NCBI RefSeq assembly: GCF_014205255.1
Contig: NZ_JACHNE010000001.1
Span: forward strand, 1,488,001 to 1,552,000
Length of the DNA: 64,000 nucleotides
From: Streptomyces caelestis
GTDB lineage: Bacteria; Actinomycetota; Actinomycetes; Streptomycetales; Streptomycetaceae
Direction of reading: 5' to 3'
The notes beneath the pieces are model-generated. The model was given only the letters and a program-made list of their open reading frames with translations. It was not told the origin of the DNA and made no database searches. Positions 31,853-62,900 of this stretch are shown one piece after another. Within the stretch, counting starts at the first letter, position 1; the number at the start of each line of letters is the position of its first letter. A program made the translations under genes and the position numbers.

Positions 31853-33550
31853 TCAGTCCTCCGGCAGTTCGACGGGCGCGATCTCGTCGTAGACGTCGCC
31901 GGGGCCCGGGTTGGCCGGGTCGGTCGTGCCGCCGAAGTGGTGCATGACGCCCCAGACCGCGTTGAGGGCGGTCTGGACGGCGCCCTCGGCCCAGCCGGCC
32001 GTCCAGGAGATGTCGTCGCCGGCGAGGAAGATGCCGCGCTTGTCCTCGGGCAGCCGGTTCTGCATGAAGTGCGTGAACAGGCGCCGCTGGTAACGGTAGT
32101 GGCCGGGCAGGTTGGCCTTGAACGCGCCCATGAAGTAGGGCTCGTTCTCCCAGGAGACGGTCACCGGGTTGCCGATGACGTGCTTGCGGATGTCGACCTT
32201 GGGATAGATCTCGCCGAGCGACTTCAGCATGACCTCCATCCGCTCGTTCGCGGACAGCGGCAGCCACTTCAGGCTGTCGTCGCACCAGGTGTAGGAGAGG
32301 CAGATGACGGCGGGCTGGTCCGGGCCGTTGTCGAGGAGATAAGTCCCGCGCGTCATACGGTCGGTGAGCGTCATCGACATGACGTCCCGGCCGGTCTCCT
32401 CGTCCTTGTCCAGCCAGAACGGCCGGTCGACCGGTACGAAGAGCTTGGAGCTCTCCATGTAGTGGGTGCGCTCGATGGCCGTCCAGTGGTCGATCGGGAA
32501 GAGCGAGTCGTCGCAGTCGATCTTCGACAGCAGCATCCAGGACTGTGCGGTGAAGATCGCCGCCGGGTAGGTGCGGATGTCGCCGTGCGCGTCGGTCACC
32601 GTGATGCGGTTGCCCGCGGTGCGGTGCAGGCGGGTGACGGCCGGGCGGGGCTCGCCGTTGTCGTGCAGCTTCGCGAGCGAGGTCCCGTAGGCCCAGTGGA
32701 CGATCTTCTCCGGCTCGCGCTCCCAGAGGCGGAGCGGCAGTTGCTGGGAGCCGCCGACGATGCCGCGGTGGTGGTCGTCGGCCTCGGTGTAGACGACGCG
32801 GAGGATCTCCAGGATGGAGTTCGGGAAGTCGGTGTCCCAGCCGCCCGTGCCGAAGCCGACCTGGCCGAAGATCTCGCGGTGCCGGAAGGACCGGAACGCC
32901 TCGGAGTCGCAGAGGAAGCCGTAGAAGGTCTGGTTGTCGAGCTTCTCGACGAGCCGGGACCAGATCTCGCGGATGCGCGGCACGTCCCGCTCGCGCAGGG
33001 CGCGGTTCATGTCGGAGAAGTCGGCGCCCTCTTCCAGGCACCGGTTCCAGGCCTCGGCGACGTCCCGGTAGACCTGGGGCAGGTCGGCGATCGTCTCGGC
33101 GTAGTGCGACTCGCCCTTGAGGTCGACGACGGTCGACGGGGTCGTCTCCGCCAGGGGGTTGGGGAAGGGCCGCGTCTGAAGGCCGACCAGGTCGATGTAG
33201 TGCTGGAGGGCGGTGGAGGACGGCGGGAAGCGCATCGCGCCCATCTCCGCGGTGAGGGAGTCGTCGCACCCCTCGAAGCCCACCGTCCGCAGCCGACCGC
33301 CGATCCGGTCGGCCTCGTACAGGACCGGCTTGAGGCCCATCTTCATCAGCTCGTACGCGGCGACGATGCCGGACAGGCCACCGCCGATGACCGCGACCTC
33401 CGTGCCGTGCTCGGTCGCGGGTATCTGCCCGAGGCCCGCCGGGTGGGCGAGGAAGTCGTCGTAGGCGTACGGGAAGTCCGGGCCGAACATGGTGATCGGC
33501 GGCTGCTGCGCGTCTGCGTGCTCGACGGCGTTGGGCACGGTGGACGTCAT
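31853..33550 (-). CDS. flavin L-amino-acid 2-monooxygenase (DavB/IaaM-like amine oxidase)
   Basis: FAD enzyme of 565 residues that should oxidatively decarboxylate an L-amino acid to its amide. The dinucleotide fold VAVIGGGLSGIVAAYELMK (52-70), E79 and GGRLRT (84-89) bind FAD. The segments FGQVGFGTGGWDTDFPNS, GHYRYQRRLFTHFMQNRLPE and the end GIFLAGDDISWTAGWAEGAVQT are those of bacterial lysine 2-monooxygenase (DavB) as I recall it; tryptophan and phenylalanine monooxygenases are related. Lysine is thus the best guess, not proven. The amidase gene lies 45 bases upstream in the same unit, as in davBA. Confidence 0.82.
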   Translation of the reverse strand: MTSTVPNAVEHADAQQPPITMFGPDFPYAYDDFLAHPAGLGQIPATEHGTEVAVIGGGLSGIVAAYELMKMGLKPVLYEADRIGGRLRTVGFEGCDDSLTAEMGAMRFPPSSTALQHYIDLVGLQTRPFPNPLAETTPSTVVDLKGESHYAETIADLPQVYRDVAEAWNRCLEEGADFSDMNRALRERDVPRIREIWSRLVEKLDNQTFYGFLCDSEAFRSFRHREIFGQVGFGTGGWDTDFPNSILEILRVVYTEADDHHRGIVGGSQQLPLRLWEREPEKIVHWAYGTSLAKLHDNGEPRPAVTRLHRTAGNRITVTDAHGDIRTYPAAIFTAQSWMLLSKIDCDDSLFPIDHWTAIERTHYMESSKLFVPVDRPFWLDKDEETGRDVMSMTLTDRMTRGTYLLDNGPDQPAVICLSYTWCDDSLKWLPLSANERMEVMLKSLGEIYPKVDIRKHVIGNPVTVSWENEPYFMGAFKANLPGHYRYQRRLFTHFMQNRLPEDKRGIFLAGDDISWTAGWAEGAVQTALNAVWGVMHHFGGTTDPANPGPGDVYDEIAPVELPED

Positions 33551-33595: not shown

Positions 33596-34384
33596 TCAGA
33601 CGAGTGGCCCGTAGAGGCCCGGGCGCCGGTCCCGCAGATACGGGTTGGTCTCGCGCGACGCGGCGAGGAAGGCGGGGTCGACGTCGGCGAGGACGAGCTC
33701 CTCGGCGCGCCCGGCCCGGGTGCGGGCGACCCCGTCGGGCCCGGCGAGCGTGGACAGCCCCACGAACTCGAACTCGCCCTCCCGGCCGACCCGGTTGACG
33801 TAGGCGACATACATCTGGTTCTCGAAGGCCCGCACCGGGATCATCGACTCGGCGACGAACTGGAACGGGTGCATCTGCGCGGTCGGGACGACCAGCAGGT
33901 CGGTGCCGGCGAGGGCGTGGGCGCGGACGTTCTCCGGGAACTCGACGTCGTAGCAGATCAGGATGCCGACGCGCAGGCCGTCGAGCTCCGCCTGGACGAC
34001 CGGCTGGTCCCCGGCCGTGAAGTGGTCGCGCTCGAAGCAGCCGAAGAGGTGGGTCTTGCGGTAGTTGGCGAGACGGGTGCCGTCGGCGGAGATCAGCTGG
34101 GCGGAGTTGAACACGGCGTCGCCGGCCCGCTCGGGATAGCCGTAGGCGATCGCGAGGCCGTGCCTGGTCGCGGTCTCGGCGATGGCGTCCGCGCAGTCGC
34201 CGTCGGCGGGCTCGGCGAGCCGGCCGACGGCGTCGCCGATCGCGTACCCGGTCAGGAACATCTCGGGCGCGACCAGCAGCCCGGCGCCCGCGGCGGCGGC
34301 CCGGCCCGCGACCTCGTCGAGGACCTTGAGGTTCTCGGCGGTGGAGCCGGGTCGGCCGGAGCTCTGGAGCAGGGCGGTGCGCAT
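33596..34384 (-). CDS. carbon-nitrogen hydrolase, DavA-like amidase
   Basis: Nitrilase-superfamily amidase of 262 residues. The catalytic triad is complete: E41 (PEMFLTGY), K110 (YRKTHLFG) and C144 (LICYDVEFPE). Similarity to 5-aminovaleramide amidase (DavA) is high in all three motif regions. It would hydrolyse the amide made by the monooxygenase encoded next to it. First gene of the pair, with GAGGAA before the ATG. An array of three TTGC half-sites lies 84-140 bases upstream. Confidence 0.85.
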   Translation of the reverse strand: MRTALLQSSGRPGSTAENLKVLDEVAGRAAAAGAGLLVAPEMFLTGYAIGDAVGRLAEPADGDCADAIAETATRHGLAIAYGYPERAGDAVFNSAQLISADGTRLANYRKTHLFGCFERDHFTAGDQPVVQAELDGLRVGILICYDVEFPENVRAHALAGTDLLVVPTAQMHPFQFVAESMIPVRAFENQMYVAYVNRVGREGEFEFVGLSTLAGPDGVARTRAGRAEELVLADVDPAFLAASRETNPYLRDRRPGLYGPLV

Positions 34385-34691
34385 GCGTGTTCCTCACCGG
34401 TACGCAGGGGTTTCGGGGGTCGGATAGACGGTACGGTCGGCGGCTTCGGCCGGACAAGGAGCAGCCGTTGCGCGCTCGTGAGCGGATCATTGCGTTCGCC
34501 GCCAGGTCTGCGGCGATTCGTTGCGGGCCCTCCGGTCGTACGGCCGGTCCGCCCGTGGGCGCAGGCCCGGGCGGGTTTCCCCGCCGGGTGGCGGAGGCGG
34601 GGTCCCGTCCCCGGTGCGATGTGGCGCGGGCGCCGCGCCGGGACAGTGGTGAGCGTCCAGTTGACGTGCGTCACCTGCCGAAAGGACCGCC
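34385..34691. other. divergent 307-base regulatory gap
   Basis: Separates the amidase gene from the secreted-protein gene. It holds the TTGC half-site array at 34468-34524, listed separately. No further gene is supported. Confidence 0.6.
34468..34524. promoter_or_regulatory. three-part TTGC operator array upstream of the amidase/monooxygenase pair
   Basis: TTGCGCG (34468), 11 bases, ATCATTGCGTTC (34486), 19 bases, TTCGTTGC (ends 34524). The TTGC boxes are 22 and 31 bases apart. The same arrangement with spacers one base shorter occurs at 39255-39309 before the permease/Lrp genes. Spacing near whole helical turns and repeated half-sites suit an Lrp/AsnC-type octamer. Confidence 0.6.
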
Positions 34692-35234
34692 ATGAACCGC
34701 CGTACGAGGACCGCCTTACTCGGCTCCGCGCTGCTGCTCACCATCGCCGCCGCAGCCGGCTCCGCCGGGGCCTCCGGCCCCGACGAGAGCAAGCGTGAGG
34801 CCGCCGCGCTCACCGGCGAGGCCAAGCTGTACCGGTCGGCCGGGGACGACATCACCTTCTCCTTCGACGCGCACCTGGCCGCGAAGGACAAGGCCGACCC
34901 GACGAAGGCGACCGGCACCTTCGAGTGGAGCCACTACCTGAACGGCGAGGGTGCCTGGGCGAAGGCCGAGGTCGACTGTCTGCTGACCGGCGGGAAGGTC
35001 GCCGTCGTCTCCGGTGTGATCACCGACTCCGACCTGCCGGGCGCCGAGGGAAAGCGCGTCGGCATCACGGTCCACGATGTCGGCCGGCATGACCGCCTCG
35101 GCTACAGCTGGGCGTCCACGGGCAGCCCCGTCGAGACGAAGGAGCTGCCCAAGTGTGTGGGCTCCGCCCCCTTCGAGAAGGTCAGGAAGGGGACGGGCGA
35201 CTTCAGGGTCGTGCCGTGGCAGCCCGCCCTCTAA
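34692..35234 (+). CDS. small secreted protein, TTA codon
   Basis: Exported protein of 180 residues with a standard Sec signal peptide (about 1-28; RRTRTALLGSALLLTIAAAA, cleavage near AGA-S). The mature part is beta-rich, with two cysteines (VDCLL and PKCVG) that may form a disulfide. I do not recognise the family. Codon 9 is TTA (34716-34718), which suggests bldA control. GAAAGGA precedes the ATG. Its end overlaps the convergent MFS gene by 32 bases. Confidence 0.82.
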   Translation: MNRRTRTALLGSALLLTIAAAAGSAGASGPDESKREAAALTGEAKLYRSAGDDITFSFDAHLAAKDKADPTKATGTFEWSHYLNGEGAWAKAEVDCLLTGGKVAVVSGVITDSDLPGAEGKRVGITVHDVGRHDRLGYSWASTGSPVETKELPKCVGSAPFEKVRKGTGDFRVVPWQPAL

Positions 35235-36399
35235 CCAGCGCCAGCGCCGTCACCAGATAGGGGATCGCCAGCACCGCGAAGACGGTGCTGTGCGCCCTGC
35301 CCGTGCCGAGCAGCGCGTACACGCCGAACGTGGCGACCGTCGCCAGCTCGGTGCCCAGGCTCGCCACGGAGGTGAGCGTGGCCCGGCGGGACTCGTCGAT
35401 ACGGTGCTGGAGGCGGGCGTCGGCCAGCACCTCCGCCAGCTGGAACCCGGCGAAGGCGAGGCTCACGAGAGCGATGCCCGCCAGTGAGCGGGCCGCGGCT
35501 CCCGCGGCCAGGGCGAGTGCGGCGCCCGCCAGCAGCGCGGCGAGACCGGACGGGCCGAGGCGTTCGGCCGGTCCGGTCAGGAGGCTGCCGACGGTGACGC
35601 CCGCCCAGATCAGCATGATCAGGTAGGGCACCGTCGCCTCGGCGACGCCGATGTCCCGGACCAGCAGCGGGGTGTACTCGTCGAGCGCGCCCCACACCGC
35701 GGCCACGGCCGGAATCAGCAGCAGGGCGCCGCGCACGGAACGGTCCCCGCGGACATCGGCGAGCCCGGTCCGCAGCGTCGTCACCCAGCTGTCGCCGGCG
35801 TCGTCCGGCCGCACCCGGTGCTCGGGGAACCGGGTCGCGATGACGGCGGTCAGCACGCAGGCCAGGAAGCTCGCGGCACCGACCGCCGCGTAGCCGCCCT
35901 GGGCGAAGACGGGCCCCGCGAGGCCGAGGGAGGCCACGGTGCCCACCAGCCGCGCGGCCCGGGCCCGGCCCATGACCCGCGCGTACCGGCCGGCGGCGCC
36001 GAGCCGGTCCAGCTCGTCGTACACCAGCGCCTCCAGCGCACCGGAGCCGAGCGCCCCGCCCGCGCCCCACAGGACGAAGCCGGCCGCGAAGGCCCAGTAC
36101 GACGGCACGATCACCCACAGCGCGAAGCCTGCGGCGGTGAGCAGCGGGCCGATCCACAACAGCCTCCGGCGCGACATGGCGTCGGCCCAGGCGCCGGAGG
36201 GCACTTCCAGCACCACCGAGGTGATCGACCACAGGGCGAACAGGGAGGAGATCTGCCAGAGCGACATGCCGGTGTCGGCGAACAGCAGCGCGTACACCGG
36301 GTAGAGCAGGACGAAGTCGTCGAGGAACGCGTAGCCGTACAGCGTGGTCGTCAGCCGCCGGGCACCGGAGGCGGGCACGCGTGCAGGTGAGAGTGTCAT
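35203..36399 (-). CDS. MFS transporter
   Basis: Membrane protein of 398 residues with about 12 hydrophobic segments. LEVPSGAWADAMSRRRLLWIG after the second segment is a typical MFS loop-2-3 motif. Probably a drug or metabolite exporter; substrate unknown. GGAAGG lies five bases before the ATG. It is transcribed alone. Confidence 0.88.
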   Translation of the reverse strand: MTLSPARVPASGARRLTTTLYGYAFLDDFVLLYPVYALLFADTGMSLWQISSLFALWSITSVVLEVPSGAWADAMSRRRLLWIGPLLTAAGFALWVIVPSYWAFAAGFVLWGAGGALGSGALEALVYDELDRLGAAGRYARVMGRARAARLVGTVASLGLAGPVFAQGGYAAVGAASFLACVLTAVIATRFPEHRVRPDDAGDSWVTTLRTGLADVRGDRSVRGALLLIPAVAAVWGALDEYTPLLVRDIGVAEATVPYLIMLIWAGVTVGSLLTGPAERLGPSGLAALLAGAALALAAGAAARSLAGIALVSLAFAGFQLAEVLADARLQHRIDESRRATLTSVASLGTELATVATFGVYALLGTGRAHSTVFAVLAIPYLVTALALVRGRAATARP

Positions 36400-36692
36400 G
36401 AGGCCTTCCCGCAGGGACGGATCGGATGCCGGAGGTACGGCGTCCGAGGCGGCCCTCGGGAGGCGCGGCTGGTGGATCAATGTCGCCAGGTCATGACACC
36501 GATGGTAGGCGGGCCGGGGCCCGGAGCACAGCGATAATGCCCTCACGGGTCCTCCGCCGGGAGGAGGGCGGGCGCCGCCCGTCTCCGCCGAGCGGCGATG
36601 GATGTCCGCCTGCTTGAGGAGGCCCCCGCACGGACGGGCGCGCGAGACTGGCTGGGCGGGCCGAACCCGACCGGTCGGCGAAGGGGGTCTTC

Positions 36693-37178
36693 ATGGTCGC
36701 CGCCGCACTGCTCTCCCTGCCGTACGTCGACGAGCACACGACGGTCGTCACGGCGGACGCCGAGGTCGTGTGGGGGGCGCTCGGTGAGGTTCTGGACCGC
36801 TCCTTCGGGGGTGGCCGAGCGGCCGCGTACGCACGCCTGGCCGGCTGCGCCGACCGCACGGCCTCCGGGCCCCGTCCCTTGGGGGAAGGCTCGACGATTC
36901 CCGGTTTCCGGGTGGCCTGCGCGGTTCCGGGCGCGGAGCTGGCCCTGATCGGGCGTCATCACTTCTCGACGTACGCCCTGCTCTTCCACCTGGACGCGGC
37001 CGGCCAGGGACGCACTCGGCTGCGTGCCGAGACCCGGGCGAGGTTCCCCGGCCCGGCCGGCGCCCTCTACGGTCGTCTCCTCATAACCACGGGCGGACAC
37101 GCGCTCGGCGTTCGGCGCCTGCTGACGGCGGTGCGCAGGGTCGGCGACACCGCCGAGACGCGCCGGCAGGAACGCTAG
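36693..37178 (+). CDS. DUF2867/SRPBCC-like hypothetical protein
   Basis: Protein of 161 residues, perhaps a helix-grip (START/SRPBCC-like) fold: VVTADAEVVWGALGEVLDRSF at the start, a beta-rich middle (GFRVACAVPGAELALIGRHH) and a final helix YGRLLITTGGHALGVRRLL. Such proteins bind hydrophobic ligands, but no function is known for this one. AAGGGGG precedes the ATG. It overlaps the convergent Lrp gene by four bases. Confidence 0.75.
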   Translation: MVAAALLSLPYVDEHTTVVTADAEVVWGALGEVLDRSFGGGRAAAYARLAGCADRTASGPRPLGEGSTIPGFRVACAVPGAELALIGRHHFSTYALLFHLDAAGQGRTRLRAETRARFPGPAGALYGRLLITTGGHALGVRRLLTAVRRVGDTAETRRQER

Positions 37179-37627
37179 GTCGGCGATCCCGACGAGAAGC
37201 GCCGCAGCAGCGGCGACAGCACGAGCACGGACTTGGTCCGCTCGACGAACGGCTCACCGGCGATCCGCTCCAGGACCCGTTCGAAGTGCCGCATGTCGGA
37301 GGCGAAGACCTGGGCGATCGCGTCCGCGTCCCCGGTGACGGTGGACGCGGCCACGACCTCCTGGTAGCGCTCCAGGCCCCGCTGGATGGTCTCCGGGGAG
37401 GTGTTGCCCCGGCAGTAGATCTCGACGAACCCCTCGGTCTGCCAGCCGAGGGCGCCCGGGTCCACCCGTACGGTGAAGCCGGTGATGGCACCGGTGGCCC
37501 GCAGCCGGTCCACGCGCCGTTTCACGGCGGGCGCGGACAGGCCGACGATCTGGCCGATGTCGGCGTAGGAGCGGCGGGCGTCCTCGGCGAGGGCGTGCAC
37601 AATGCGTTCGTCGAGATCGTTCAGCAC
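37175..37627 (-). CDS. Lrp/AsnC family regulator linked to permease
   Basis: Regulator of 150 residues. The N-terminal helix-turn-helix is clear (about 2-50; ADIGQIVGLSAPAVKRRVDRL) and the C-terminal part is the amino-acid-sensing domain (about 65-140). GTG 37627 starts the domain but has no clear ribosome binding site. It begins 10 bases after the stop of an amino-acid permease on the same strand, so it depends on the permease transcript and perhaps on coupled translation. It is a good candidate for the protein that reads the TTGC arrays. Confidence 0.9.
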   Translation of the reverse strand: MLNDLDERIVHALAEDARRSYADIGQIVGLSAPAVKRRVDRLRATGAITGFTVRVDPGALGWQTEGFVEIYCRGNTSPETIQRGLERYQEVVAASTVTGDADAIAQVFASDMRHFERVLERIAGEPFVERTKSVLVLSPLLRRFSSGSPT

Positions 37628-37637
37628 AGTGGGTCGG

Positions 37638-39104
37638 TCACTTTTCGGATGGTGCGAGTCGGGAACGGCGATAGCCGTACACGAAGTAGAACACGAGCCC
37701 GGCGGCCATCCAGACACCGAAGACGACCCAGGTCACGGTCGGCAGGCTGCCCATCATCCAGACGCAGAAGGCGAAGCCCAGCGCGGGCAGGACCGGCGAG
37801 AGCGGCACCCGGAAGGTGCGGGGCATCTCCGGCCGGGTCCGGCGCAGCACCACGACGGCCACGTTGACCAGCGCGAAGGCGAACAGGGTGCCGATGCTGG
37901 TGGCGTCGGCGAGCTGCCCGAGCGGGATCGCGGCGGCCAGGACACCGCAGAACAGGGAGACGATCAGGGTGTTGGCGCGGGGCGTGCCCGTCTTCGGGTG
38001 GACCCTGGCGAACACCTTCGGCACGAGCCCGTCGCGGGACATGGCGAACAGGATGCGGGTCTGTCCGTACAGCACGGTCAGGACGACGCTCGCGATGGCG
38101 ACGACGGCGCAGAACGCCAGCAGCGTGCCCCAGAAGCTCTGCCCGGTGACCTCGCGCATGATCTGGGCGAGGGCGGCCTCGGAGTCGGTGAAGTTCTTCC
38201 ACGGCTTGGCGCCTACGGCGACGGCCGCGACGAGCACGTACAGCGCGGTGACGATGACGAGCGACAGCATGATCGCGCGGGGCAGATCGCGCTGGGCGTT
38301 CTTCGCCTCCTCGCCGGCGGTGGAGGCGGCGTCGAAGCCGATGTAGGAGAAGAACAGCGTGGCACCGGCGGCGCTGACACCGGCCATGCCGAGCGGCATG
38401 AAGTTCTCGTAGTTGCCGGAGCGGAAGCCCTGGACGCCGATGGCGCAGAACATCACCAGCGCGGCGATCTTCACGATGACCATGACGGTGTTGGCGCGGG
38501 CGGACTCGCGGGCGCCGCCCAGCAGGAACGCCATCGCGAGCATGACGACGATCAGCGCGGGCAGGTTGAACACTCCGCCGTCGCCGGGCGGTGCGGACAG
38601 GGCGGCCGGGATGGTGACGCCGACGGTCCCGTCGAGCAGCTCGTTGAGGTACTCGCCCCAGCCGACGGCGACGGCGGCGACGGACACGCCGTACTCCAGG
38701 ACCAGGCACCAGCCGCATATCCAGGCGATCAGCTCGCCCATCGTTGCGTACGCATACGAGTACGAGGAGCCGGAGACCGGGATGGTACCCGCCAGCTCGG
38801 CGTAGGACAGGGCAGAGAACAGGGCGGTCAGGCCGGCGATGACGAAGGCGAGCGTGACGGCCGGGCCCGCCTTGGGGACGGCCTCCCCGAGCACGACGAA
38901 GATGCCGGTGCCGAGGGTGGCACCGATGCTGATCATGGTGAGCTGCCACAGCCCGAGGGTGCGCCGCAGCGAGCCTCCCTCGCCCTGGCCACCCTCCGCG
39001 ACCAGGTTCTCCACCGGCTTGCGACGCATGAGGCGCGCGCCGACGCCCGGGGACGGCGGGGCGGTCTGACTACTGCTGTGCGGGGGTGCGCCTTGGTCGA
39101 GCAC
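37638..39104 (-). CDS. APC superfamily amino acid permease
   Basis: Transporter of 488 residues with 12 or more membrane segments. The first segments contain ISIGATLGTGIFVVLGE, the conserved unwound helix of the APC family, and SYAELAGTIPVSGSSYSYAYATMGE, typical of the cationic amino acid transporter (CAT) branch. A basic amino acid such as lysine is therefore possible. GTG 39104 has AAGGAG seven bases upstream. Followed by the Lrp regulator. Confidence 0.92.
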   Translation of the reverse strand: MLDQGAPPHSSSQTAPPSPGVGARLMRRKPVENLVAEGGQGEGGSLRRTLGLWQLTMISIGATLGTGIFVVLGEAVPKAGPAVTLAFVIAGLTALFSALSYAELAGTIPVSGSSYSYAYATMGELIAWICGWCLVLEYGVSVAAVAVGWGEYLNELLDGTVGVTIPAALSAPPGDGGVFNLPALIVVMLAMAFLLGGARESARANTVMVIVKIAALVMFCAIGVQGFRSGNYENFMPLGMAGVSAAGATLFFSYIGFDAASTAGEEAKNAQRDLPRAIMLSLVIVTALYVLVAAVAVGAKPWKNFTDSEAALAQIMREVTGQSFWGTLLAFCAVVAIASVVLTVLYGQTRILFAMSRDGLVPKVFARVHPKTGTPRANTLIVSLFCGVLAAAIPLGQLADATSIGTLFAFALVNVAVVVLRRTRPEMPRTFRVPLSPVLPALGFAFCVWMMGSLPTVTWVVFGVWMAAGLVFYFVYGYRRSRLAPSEK

Positions 39105-39254
39105 GCGCTGACTCCTTCGTCACTGCCGGTCTCGGGTGGCAGGGACCGGCAGTGTCCCGCCCGACAGCCGGGACCCACCGAGCGGGGTCCCCGCCACGCC
39201 ACGTACGAGGCGACAGCCTACGAGCAGGGACGTTGCCCGTGTAATGCAGCAACC

Positions 39255-39309
39255 TTGCGCGTGCCCGCAAGATCATTGCGTTCCTCGGGACTGGCCGGAG
39301 GTTCGTTGC
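39255..39309. promoter_or_regulatory. three-part TTGC operator array upstream of the permease/Lrp unit
   Basis: TTGCGCG (39255), 10 bases, ATCATTGCGTTC (39272), 18 bases, TTCGTTGC (ends 39309). TTGC boxes are 21 and 30 bases apart. A fourth CGTTGCAC follows near 39329. It overlaps the 3' end of the GNAT gene and lies 150-205 bases before the permease start. Near-identical to 34468-34524. Confidence 0.6.
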
Positions 39310-39839
39310 ACGTCGGCGTTCGTCCGTTGCACAGGACTTGTCCGGACCAGCTCTTTCACCAGAAACGTGAGCTCCTCGACACACTCGTGCGTGACTCCGT
39401 CGTGGTCCTCGTAGGACCAGCGGCCGACGTAGGGGGCGAGTGGCAGATAGCCGAGCCGGGCGTAGAGGGCGGCGGCGCTCGGGTTGTCGTCGGCGACGCC
39501 GAGGCCGACGGCCGTACGGCCCCGCTCCCGGGCGCGTTCCTCGGCGGCCCGGACCAGGGCGCTGCCGATGCCGCGCGAGCGCAGCTTCTCGGGCCACACG
39601 GACAGCGCGTTGATCTCCGGGCAGCCGGGCCGTGCCGCCCGTACGGTCGCGTCGTCGCAGCCGCCCCAGCGCAGCTCCGTGTGTCCCACGGGCCGCCCGT
39701 CGAGCCAGGCGACGAGATACGTGCTCTGCCCCCGCTCCTGGCGCTCGAAGCGGCGCGCGTGGAAGGAGGTGGCGCCCGGGGAGCCGATGTACTGGTCGAG
39801 CACCGCCACATCGGCGGCCCGGCAGACGGTGATCTCCAT
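39273..39839 (-). CDS. GNAT family N-acetyltransferase
   Basis: Acetyltransferase of 188 residues. The acetyl-CoA-binding motif A is RSRGIGSALVRAAEERARERG (about 87-107; the R-x-x-G-x-G/A pattern), and NPSAAALYARLGY is motif B. Substrate unknown. ATG 39839 is preferred; the ribosome binding site is weak. The last 20 residues are polar and low in similarity, and their DNA contains the TTGC array. Confidence 0.88.
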   Translation of the reverse strand: MEITVCRAADVAVLDQYIGSPGATSFHARRFERQERGQSTYLVAWLDGRPVGHTELRWGGCDDATVRAARPGCPEINALSVWPEKLRSRGIGSALVRAAEERARERGRTAVGLGVADDNPSAAALYARLGYLPLAPYVGRWSYEDHDGVTHECVEELTFLVKELVRTSPVQRTNADVQRTSGQSRGTQ

Positions 39840-62334: not shown

Positions 62335-62900
62335 CGTTCGGCGCCTTCCCTGCTGTTCGTTTCGATCATTGCGTTGATGGCCTCGACCCACTCGTTGTGC
62401 TCGGCCGCGTGGTCGGAGCGGAAGCCGGAGTCGATCAGCCGGTCGCCGTGCTCCCAGGTGACGACGAGCAGGCCGCCCTCGGTGAGCACCTTGCCCGCGA
62501 TGCCCTTGTCGAGCCGGGCCTCGCGGAGCTGTGCGGCCGGGACGAAGAAGTCGCTCGCCCCGGGGCGTACGACGTCCAGCCCGGCGTCCGTGAGCATGAG
62601 CTCGGCGCGGCTGCGGGTGCCCAGGCCGTGCGCGACGATGCGGTCGAGCCACTGTCCGGCGGTGGTGGATCCGTGGTAGCGGCCGCTCGTCGTCAGGCGC
62701 ACGGGGCCCGTCTCGTCCGGGGGCGTGGGCAGCTCGGGCAGGTCGCCCTGGAGCGTGCCGCGCCACTTCCAGCCCTCGCGCATCAGCCAGTAGACGAGCG
62801 CGACGAACAGGGCGAGGCCGACGACCCAGCCGATGCGAGCGGCCCAGTCGGTCACTTGCGCCGATTCCTTCTCGGCGGCGAGCAGGAGTACAGGTGTCAC
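62331..62900 (-). CDS. PH-like membrane protein in the pyr operon
   Basis: Protein of 189 residues. One hydrophobic segment (about 17-38) near the N-terminus is followed by a short linker and a mostly beta PH-like domain (about 75-180; [37 protein letters not shown]). Probably anchored at the membrane with the domain inside. Its role in pyrimidine synthesis is unknown. GTG 62900 overlaps the pyrC stop and its TGA overlaps the carA ATG, so it is tightly coupled on both sides. Confidence 0.78.

Follow-up and report, generated by a model that had tools for sequence, protein, structure and literature searches.

Two gene pairs lie on the (-) strand of a 64,000-nucleotide stretch of the Streptomyces caelestis genome (G000:C1:1488001-1552000, the whole of which is referred to here as the window), and each is preceded by an ordered array of short repeats built around the word GCAA. 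The first pair begins with davA (33596..34384), encoding a davA-like carbon-nitrogen hydrolase or amidase (Pfam CN_hydrolase PF00795, 6.7e-50), and continues with davB (31853..33550), encoding a 565-aa davB-like flavin L-amino-acid monooxygenase/oxidase that is a flavin amine oxidoreductase by domain and whose closest solved relative is the L-amino acid oxidase/monooxygenase 3we0 (phmmer 9e-240). The second pair begins with a permease gene (37638..39104) and continues with lrp (37175..37627), which encodes a 150-aa Lrp/AsnC regulator (Pfam HTH_AsnC-type 1.1e-15, AsnC_trans_reg 2.4e-14) that we propose as the protein binding both arrays. NCBIfam TIGR00909 (620 bits, cut-off 556.8) identifies the permease as an APC-family amino-acid transporter, a class assignment that implies no substrate. 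We infer that davAB and permease-lrp are operons with these limits. The AsnC-type winged helix-turn-helix (HTH) domain of the regulator (PF13404, 57.6 bits, cut-off 27) and its RAM domain (PF01037, 53.4 bits, cut-off 25) place it in the Lrp/AsnC family; none of its eight matches to named NCBIfam equivalogs (LysM, AsnC, Lrp, LrpA) is above cut-off, the best being LysM with 65.5 bits against a cut-off of 180. Likewise, none of the 11 NCBIfam matches of DavA, a putative 5-aminovaleramidase, is above cut-off.

Both arrays read on the (-) strand. In array A, before davA, the GCAA words start at 34524, 34493 and 34471 (spacings of 31 and 22 bp), within unit 1 (CGCAACGAATCGCCG, 34511..34525), unit 2 (CGCAATGATCCGCTC, 34480..34494) and unit 3 (CGCAACGGCTGCTCC, 34458..34472). 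In array B, before the permease gene, they start at 39330, 39309, 39279, 39258 and 39236 (21, 30, 21 and 22 bp), and belong to an extra upstream unit (TGCAACGGACGAACG, 39317..39331), unit 1 (TGCAACGAACCTCCG, 39296..39310), unit 2 (CGCAATGATCTTGCG, 39266..39280, a 15-bp inverted repeat of the form CGCAA-N5-TTGCG), unit 3 (CGCAAGGTTGCTGCA, 39245..39259) and a further GCAA at 39233..39236. A preliminary description of this DNA had reported a three-part array at two sites; both sites are where it put them and the three parts are correct at each, except that the permease-side array runs past the reported span at both ends, by one unit upstream and one GCAA downstream. At both operons the last base of the third unit directly precedes a predicted -35 hexamer, followed after an 18-bp spacer by a predicted -10 hexamer: TTGTCC (34452..34457) and TACCGT (34428..34433) for davA, and TTACAC (39239..39244) and TAGGCT (39215..39220) for the permease gene, where the downstream GCAA falls between the two. 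These hexamers are predictions.

Conservation of the arrays was assessed in 110 loci, comprising the best 80 of 548 relatives of the window Lrp, a set weighted towards close relatives (78 of the 80 are from Streptomyces, with identity up to 99%), and 30 added Streptomyces davB loci, the window's own included. Upstream regions were used if the full 260 bp was available, giving 96 for davA (66 and 30 from the two locus sets, amounting to 92 distinct sequences with four identical pairs) and 60 for the permease gene; permease matches starting beyond residue 39 were excluded, and 13 lrp loci had no permease match. When upstreams are searched for three GCAA words with spacings of 28-34 and 20-23 bp, the exact core triplet is found before 92 of the 96 davA genes (31/22 in 91, 29/22 in one) and 58 of the 60 permease genes (30/21 in 56, 31/21 in two), and all six misses are one-letter changes, four davA upstreams having ACAA for the first GCAA and two permease upstreams GCAT for the third. 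Among Markov-shuffled controls the triplet occurs in 5 of 19,200 davA-type and 12 of 12,000 permease-type upstreams.

These counts bear on whether two GC-rich upstream regions simply resemble each other by chance or through low complexity. The 12-base core shared by the two sites, ATCATTGCGTTC, which had been put forward as improbable by chance, is by itself only mildly rare: with up to two mismatches it has six matches in the window against 1.49 expected, and the genome holds two exact copies, both in the window, and 16 one-mismatch copies, compared with none of the reversed control pattern. We consequently rejected the 12-mer as stand-alone evidence, since it is too weakly enriched. The ordered array, however, lies far beyond chance, and given fixed-spacing conservation in nearly all upstreams against the handful of shuffled occurrences we regard the probability of a chance resemblance as negligible. 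Two further copies of the 12-mer in the window, a one-mismatch near-copy ATCATTGCGTTG at 62365-62376 and a two-mismatch copy at 38740, were rejected as arrays, the former because inspection by eye found no second or third unit around it and the latter because it falls within the permease frame.

On the davA side, information content averages 0.37 bits per base just upstream of the array, rises to 1.8-2.0 bits per base in unit 1, from the GCAA through the following ten bases, reaches 2.0 at every GCAA, and drops to 0.2-1.1 across the 15 bases separating units 1 and 2, a profile resembling a footprint. Before the permease gene, the region just upstream of the array is also conserved (mean 0.87 bits per base), which agrees with the extra upstream unit there, 45 of 58 loci having a GCAA 20-21 bp ahead of unit 1. 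Array B overlaps the end of an unrelated GNAT open reading frame, as had been noted, with the stop codon at 39273-39275 inside unit 2. Coding constraint can nevertheless be dismissed as the cause of the array, in agreement with the earlier suggestion, because only 10 of the 58 permease-side arrays have a GNAT match whose end is 450 bp or less from the start of the permease gene.

The distance from the array to the predicted promoter is almost as rigid as the array itself. A TT at +14 from the third GCAA is present in 92 of 92 davA and 58 of 58 permease upstreams, a TAnnnT at +38 in 96% and 95% of them, and the two together in 88 of 92 and 55 of 58. Across both strands of the same loci this geometry is found at 149 of 5,082 GCAA words, of which 143 are array sites. 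Symmetry within the units is more variable: permease-side unit 2 is fully paired (five of five outer pairs) in 40 of 58 loci and unit 3 has three of five in 51 of 58, while the davA-side units retain the 5' half and have mostly lost the 3' half. Lrp proteins bind clustered, imperfect inverted repeats with two or three helical turns from centre to centre, and are able to wrap DNA (PMC2995911). With imperfect inverted repeats spaced at 21-22 and 30-31 bp, the arrays match that description, the davA units being mostly half-sites.

Our preferred interpretation, to which we assign a probability of roughly 0.7, is that the Lrp at 37175-37627 binds both arrays and, with its effector in good supply, turns on both operons; we infer binding, activation, ligand and substrate from sequence and comparison. 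Lrp dimers would recognise 15-bp units of the form CGCAR-N5-YTGCG, often with a good match in the 5' half alone. Three or four such units, two and three helical turns apart, would lie on the same face of the DNA, where several dimers, or an octamer, might bind cooperatively and wrap it. The unit nearest the promoter, which borders the -35 hexamer and keeps an equal distance in both operons, would then position an activator to touch RNA polymerase at a promoter whose spacer, at 18 bp, is long. Given plenty of the effector, for which L-lysine is the likeliest candidate and ornithine or arginine the next, Lrp would switch on uptake through the permease and its own synthesis, and also davAB, whose products would carry out an oxidative decarboxylation of the amino acid to the amide and its subsequent hydrolysis. 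Activation is favoured because the units end upstream of the -35 hexamer at a constant distance.

The same Lrp and operators could in principle repress both operons until the amino acid relieves them, or the apo form could be an activator that lysine turns off, a mode of action proposed for LysM of archaea. Among archaeal Lrps the effector most often acts as a co-repressor, or else abolishes activation in the manner suggested for LysM (PMC2995911). Repressors are on record among actinobacterial Lrps (PMC11609053; PMC11033246). The GCAA between the predicted permease -35 and -10 hexamers also has counterparts elsewhere, 30 of 58 loci having a GCAA 22 bp past that of unit 3. However, at davA the whole array lies upstream of the -35, and a rigid -35/-10 distance in three kinds of promoter (the third, before ddaH, is described below) better fits contact with polymerase. 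In addition, a comparable Mycobacterium tuberculosis cluster, rocD-Rv2323c, is induced by arginine together with its neighbouring regulator Rv2324 (PMC4569260), a case that by analogy supports induction by substrate. We therefore consider repression improbable.

The predicted regulon is small. We searched the window's genome (8.94 Mb, single contig) and, keeping matches at E <= 1e-3, 61 Streptomyces genomes with a sequence-only profile of the array, built from 60 arrays that came from Streptomyces other than the window genome, some of them close relatives. The two window sites are the sole strong matches in their genome (E = 3.6e-15 and 6.6e-14, the next being 0.007), so that a large regulon was rejected. 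The third-best match, at G000:C1:8209816-8209844, covers only the second half of the array, and none of the 12 queried proteins was found nearby. Among the 61 genomes, 82 listed matches fall in 53, and 79 of the 82 have davB or lrp no more than 5 kb away; the remaining three are before a relocated davA in one genome (G012) and at lrp2-ddaH loci in two others (G014 and G028). The alignment of upstream regions across Streptomyces that had been suggested as a check, with loss of the array from relatives keeping the genes as the unfavourable outcome, thus finds the array conserved. In G012, davA, permease-lrp and davB stand at three distant places (L192, L193 and L194), with davA about 3.8 Mb from permease-lrp and an array before both. 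In G045 the array lies before davB, and no davA was found there.

Co-occurrence points to the same regulator. Among 150 Streptomyces genomes, davB (a match of at least 80% identity) is present in 143, and davB and this Lrp (at least 76%) are present together in 142 and missing together in five (G037, G050, G079, G120 and G121); a further genome, G375, likewise has neither. The discordant genomes, each in more than 1,100 contigs, are G073 and G149, which have the Lrp and a weaker davB match, and G028, which has davB and in which the Lrp ortholog was not found. In a class-wide sample of 246 genomes, davB was found at 1e-150 or better in 34, of which 13 are outside Streptomyces. Within one other family, here called f17, all seven sampled davB genomes encode an Lrp of 58-61% identity, located inside the davB locus read in six and on another contig in the seventh (G243). 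The gene order is permease-davA-davB in six of the seven, the remaining locus (L255) being cut at a contig end. The earlier view that the arrangement is unlike davBA plus transporter elsewhere should therefore be amended, as f17 has this order, mostly with an adjoining Lrp. These f17 loci, for example L251 (9661-10089), are compact, with a convergent Lrp and two GCAA units before davA; a GCAA pair precedes davA at a spacing of 31 bp in four of the six f17 loci read and of 22 bp in one more, the last having none. In six davB genomes from four other families, no Lrp above 39% identity was found among matches at 1e-15, and the 230 bp read ahead of davA or davB at these six loci contain no GCAA pair. 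The array thus accompanies the Lrp across the sampled families, linkage and common descent explaining part of the pattern. Relatives of the Lrp also occur on plasmid records of Embleya (64%) and Nonomuraea (61%).

The arrays might instead be bound by an unlinked regulator, the neighbouring Lrp being a bystander. Such a regulator would account for 13 of the 80 Lrp loci, in which lrp has neither an adjoining permease match nor an array in the 260 bp before it and davA keeps its array nonetheless: of the 11 such loci with davA read, nine have it exactly, and L053 and L096 are one letter off. Yet strong matches are limited to the promoters of davA (or davB), permease-lrp and lrp2-ddaH, a distribution that speaks against a global regulator; the type of regulator that these promoters share is this Lrp clade; and sampled families without the Lrp have no GCAA pair. 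We therefore consider an unlinked regulator very unlikely. The Lrp at 37175-37627, which the preliminary description proposed as controlling both units, stands as the best candidate: it is encoded in one of the target operons and co-occurs with davB, the davB genomes sampled from four other families show neither a close Lrp nor a GCAA pair, and a paralogue with the same HTH core has a similar array beside it (described below). Binding and a role for lysine are retained as proposals. Seven of the 13 permease-less loci (L050, L058, L079, L083, L085, L089 and L094) keep the sequence GTKTTCTACTT directly upstream of lrp, like the end of the region coding for the permease C-terminus, a remnant that suggests deletion of permease and array there.

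A paralogous regulator, Lrp2, 54-58% identical to Lrp, is encoded before ddaH-rocD. In L207 the proteins past lrp2 are a dimethylargininase (390 bits, cut-off 300) and an ornithine transaminase (488 bits, cut-off 378) by NCBIfam. The intergenic region between lrp2 and ddaH carries arrays of GCAG or GCAA units, for example CGCAGCATTCCTGCG or CGCAACACTGTTGCG, and the full module, -35/-10 distances included, is present in six of nine such regions (L196, L207, L212, L213, L215 and L218). An HTH core, AVKRR[VL]DR, is common to Lrp, the f17 Lrps and Lrp2 (eight sequences aligned), with Lrp2 having AVKRRVDR as Lrp does. The window's own genome also has lrp2, ddaH and rocD, at about 5087-7764 of L212 (G000:C1:1250000-1262000), with a mostly GCAG-type array between lrp2 and ddaH. 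These observations hint that the module is a signature of this Lrp clade, the paralogue being the strongest pointer. A bolder proposal, which we advance tentatively and rate at a little under even odds, is that a clade-wide module, consisting of a 15-bp CGCAR unit, a second three turns on and a third two turns further that abuts the -35 of a promoter with an 18-bp spacer, has been inherited or copied among unrelated operons and has split into a lysine branch (Lrp, davAB and permease; mostly GCAA) and an arginine/ornithine branch (Lrp2 and ddaH-rocD; mostly GCAG), providing two-channel sensing of basic amino acids.

The substrate bears on the identity of the effector. Relative to L-AAO/MOG, the L-amino acid oxidase/monooxygenase described in PMC5832979, DavB keeps the pocket residues Arg102, Trp235, Asp238, Tyr416, Trp418, Phe473 and Trp516, with changes of Cys254 to Ala, Gln258 to His and Ala515 to Gly (numbering of that paper, chain minus 20, derived by hand on the alignment). 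Cys254, changed in DavB, is key to the ratio of oxidase to monooxygenase activity in L-AAO/MOG, an enzyme that accepts Lys, Orn and Arg (PMC5832979). The predicted DavB substrate is thus, with good support, a basic amino acid, and lysine is the likeliest. Both pathway and effector might instead be arginine (or ornithine), in which case davB would encode an arginine 2-monooxygenase, and davA an amidase acting on guanidinobutyramide. Arginine 2-monooxygenase activity has long been described for Streptomyces, the largely retained Lys-binding pocket would suit any basic amino acid, and the paralogous Lrp2 adjoins arginine genes. Moreover, the kcat/Km of L-AAO/MOG is higher for Orn than for Lys, in assays at different pH (PMC5832979, Table 2). 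By contrast, the oxidase activity of this closest solved enzyme on Arg is 6% of that on Lys (PMC5832979), and this genome has, in addition, a distinct arginine/ornithine locus, ddaH-rocD, with an Lrp2 of its own. On balance arginine or ornithine seems to us possible though unlikely, and lysine remains our preferred substrate and effector.

Several observations count against activation of both operons by this Lrp, or narrow its scope. The davA units are largely half-sites, unit 2 having none of the five outer pairs in 75 of 92 upstreams. Eight of the 61 genomes have no profile match at 1e-3; two of these, G037 and G050, lack both davB and lrp, and the others (G005, G041, G047, G053, G056 and G058) retain them, their arrays being weaker (best E between 0.001 and 0.22). 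G047 and G056 do fit the module pattern before davA (L201 and L211), and G058 has weak partial matches only, before davA and permease. The davB of G012 stands alone without an array, and the 13 loci without permease and array before lrp mean that autoregulation is not universal. The absences in G050 and G079, two of the five genomes with neither gene, come from assemblies that are only 82% and 78% complete, respectively, and linkage and shared ancestry account for part of the co-occurrence of davB and Lrp. The f17 davA upstreams read show no third GCAA, one f17 locus (L256) has no GCAA before davA at all, and f17 permease upstreams lack a GCAA pair in five of six (one has it). Three of the nine lrp2-ddaH regions (L214, L216 and L217) do not fit the full module pattern. 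Finally, lysine catabolism in S. clavuligerus has been described as proceeding via cadaverine (PMC3880171).

If our interpretation is correct, Streptomyces would break down a basic amino acid through a regulated oxygenase pathway, beside the cadaverine route described for S. clavuligerus, with the predicted regulator, operator and importer present in most of the genomes examined. Because lysine supply feeds beta-lactam biosynthesis (PMC3880171), a switch over lysine loss would be of practical use. The fixed distance between unit and promoter, in three kinds of operon and with two paralogous regulators, may also offer a clean case for activation of sigma-70-type promoters by an Lrp.

The published actinobacterial Lrps consulted have other targets (PMC11609053; PMC11033246). 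SCAB_Lrp2 (PMC11609053), SCO3361 and SACE_Lrp (PMC11033246) belong to the same family and show autoregulation or control of neighbouring genes; the site of SCAB_Lrp2, GTCCACGTCCCCGTCGAC, is unlike the array, and that protein responds to tryptophan (PMC11609053). The OP1 site, which lies in the promoter of SCAB_Lrp2 (SCAB_75421) itself, had no match within two mismatches in L091, which is an S. stelliscabiei and not an S. scabies locus, and SCAB_Lrp2 was not adopted as the counterpart of the present Lrp. In the literature accessible to our search, which left most subscription journals outside its coverage, no link of davBA or of this permease to an Lrp was found, and the main text of PMC12930585 does not mention Streptomyces. 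The L-lysine monooxygenase pathway encoded by davBA of Pseudomonas likewise combines a flavin monooxygenase near L-AAO/MOG with a CN-hydrolase, whereas here davAB lies near an APC permease and an Lrp. Rv2324 of M. tuberculosis, which we take to be an Lrp/AsnC protein, stands beside a gene set that resembles lrp2-ddaH-rocD. That system, as described in the part of PMC4569260 available, responds to arginine and not lysine, and no operator is described there. Local archaeal Lrp/AsnC regulators (LysM, Ss-LrpB and Ptr2; PMC2995911) resemble the present one in combining HTH_AsnC and RAM domains, in using repeat clusters two or three turns apart and in having amino-acid or permease targets; the present system differs in its unit, CGCAR-N5-YTGCG, its sigma-70-like promoters, its near-invariant distance to the -35 and -10, and its proposed basic amino-acid targets. 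The system would thus be a local Lrp/AsnC regulon of a kind already known, marked by an unusually rigid promoter module that is used more than once and is common to two paralogous regulators.

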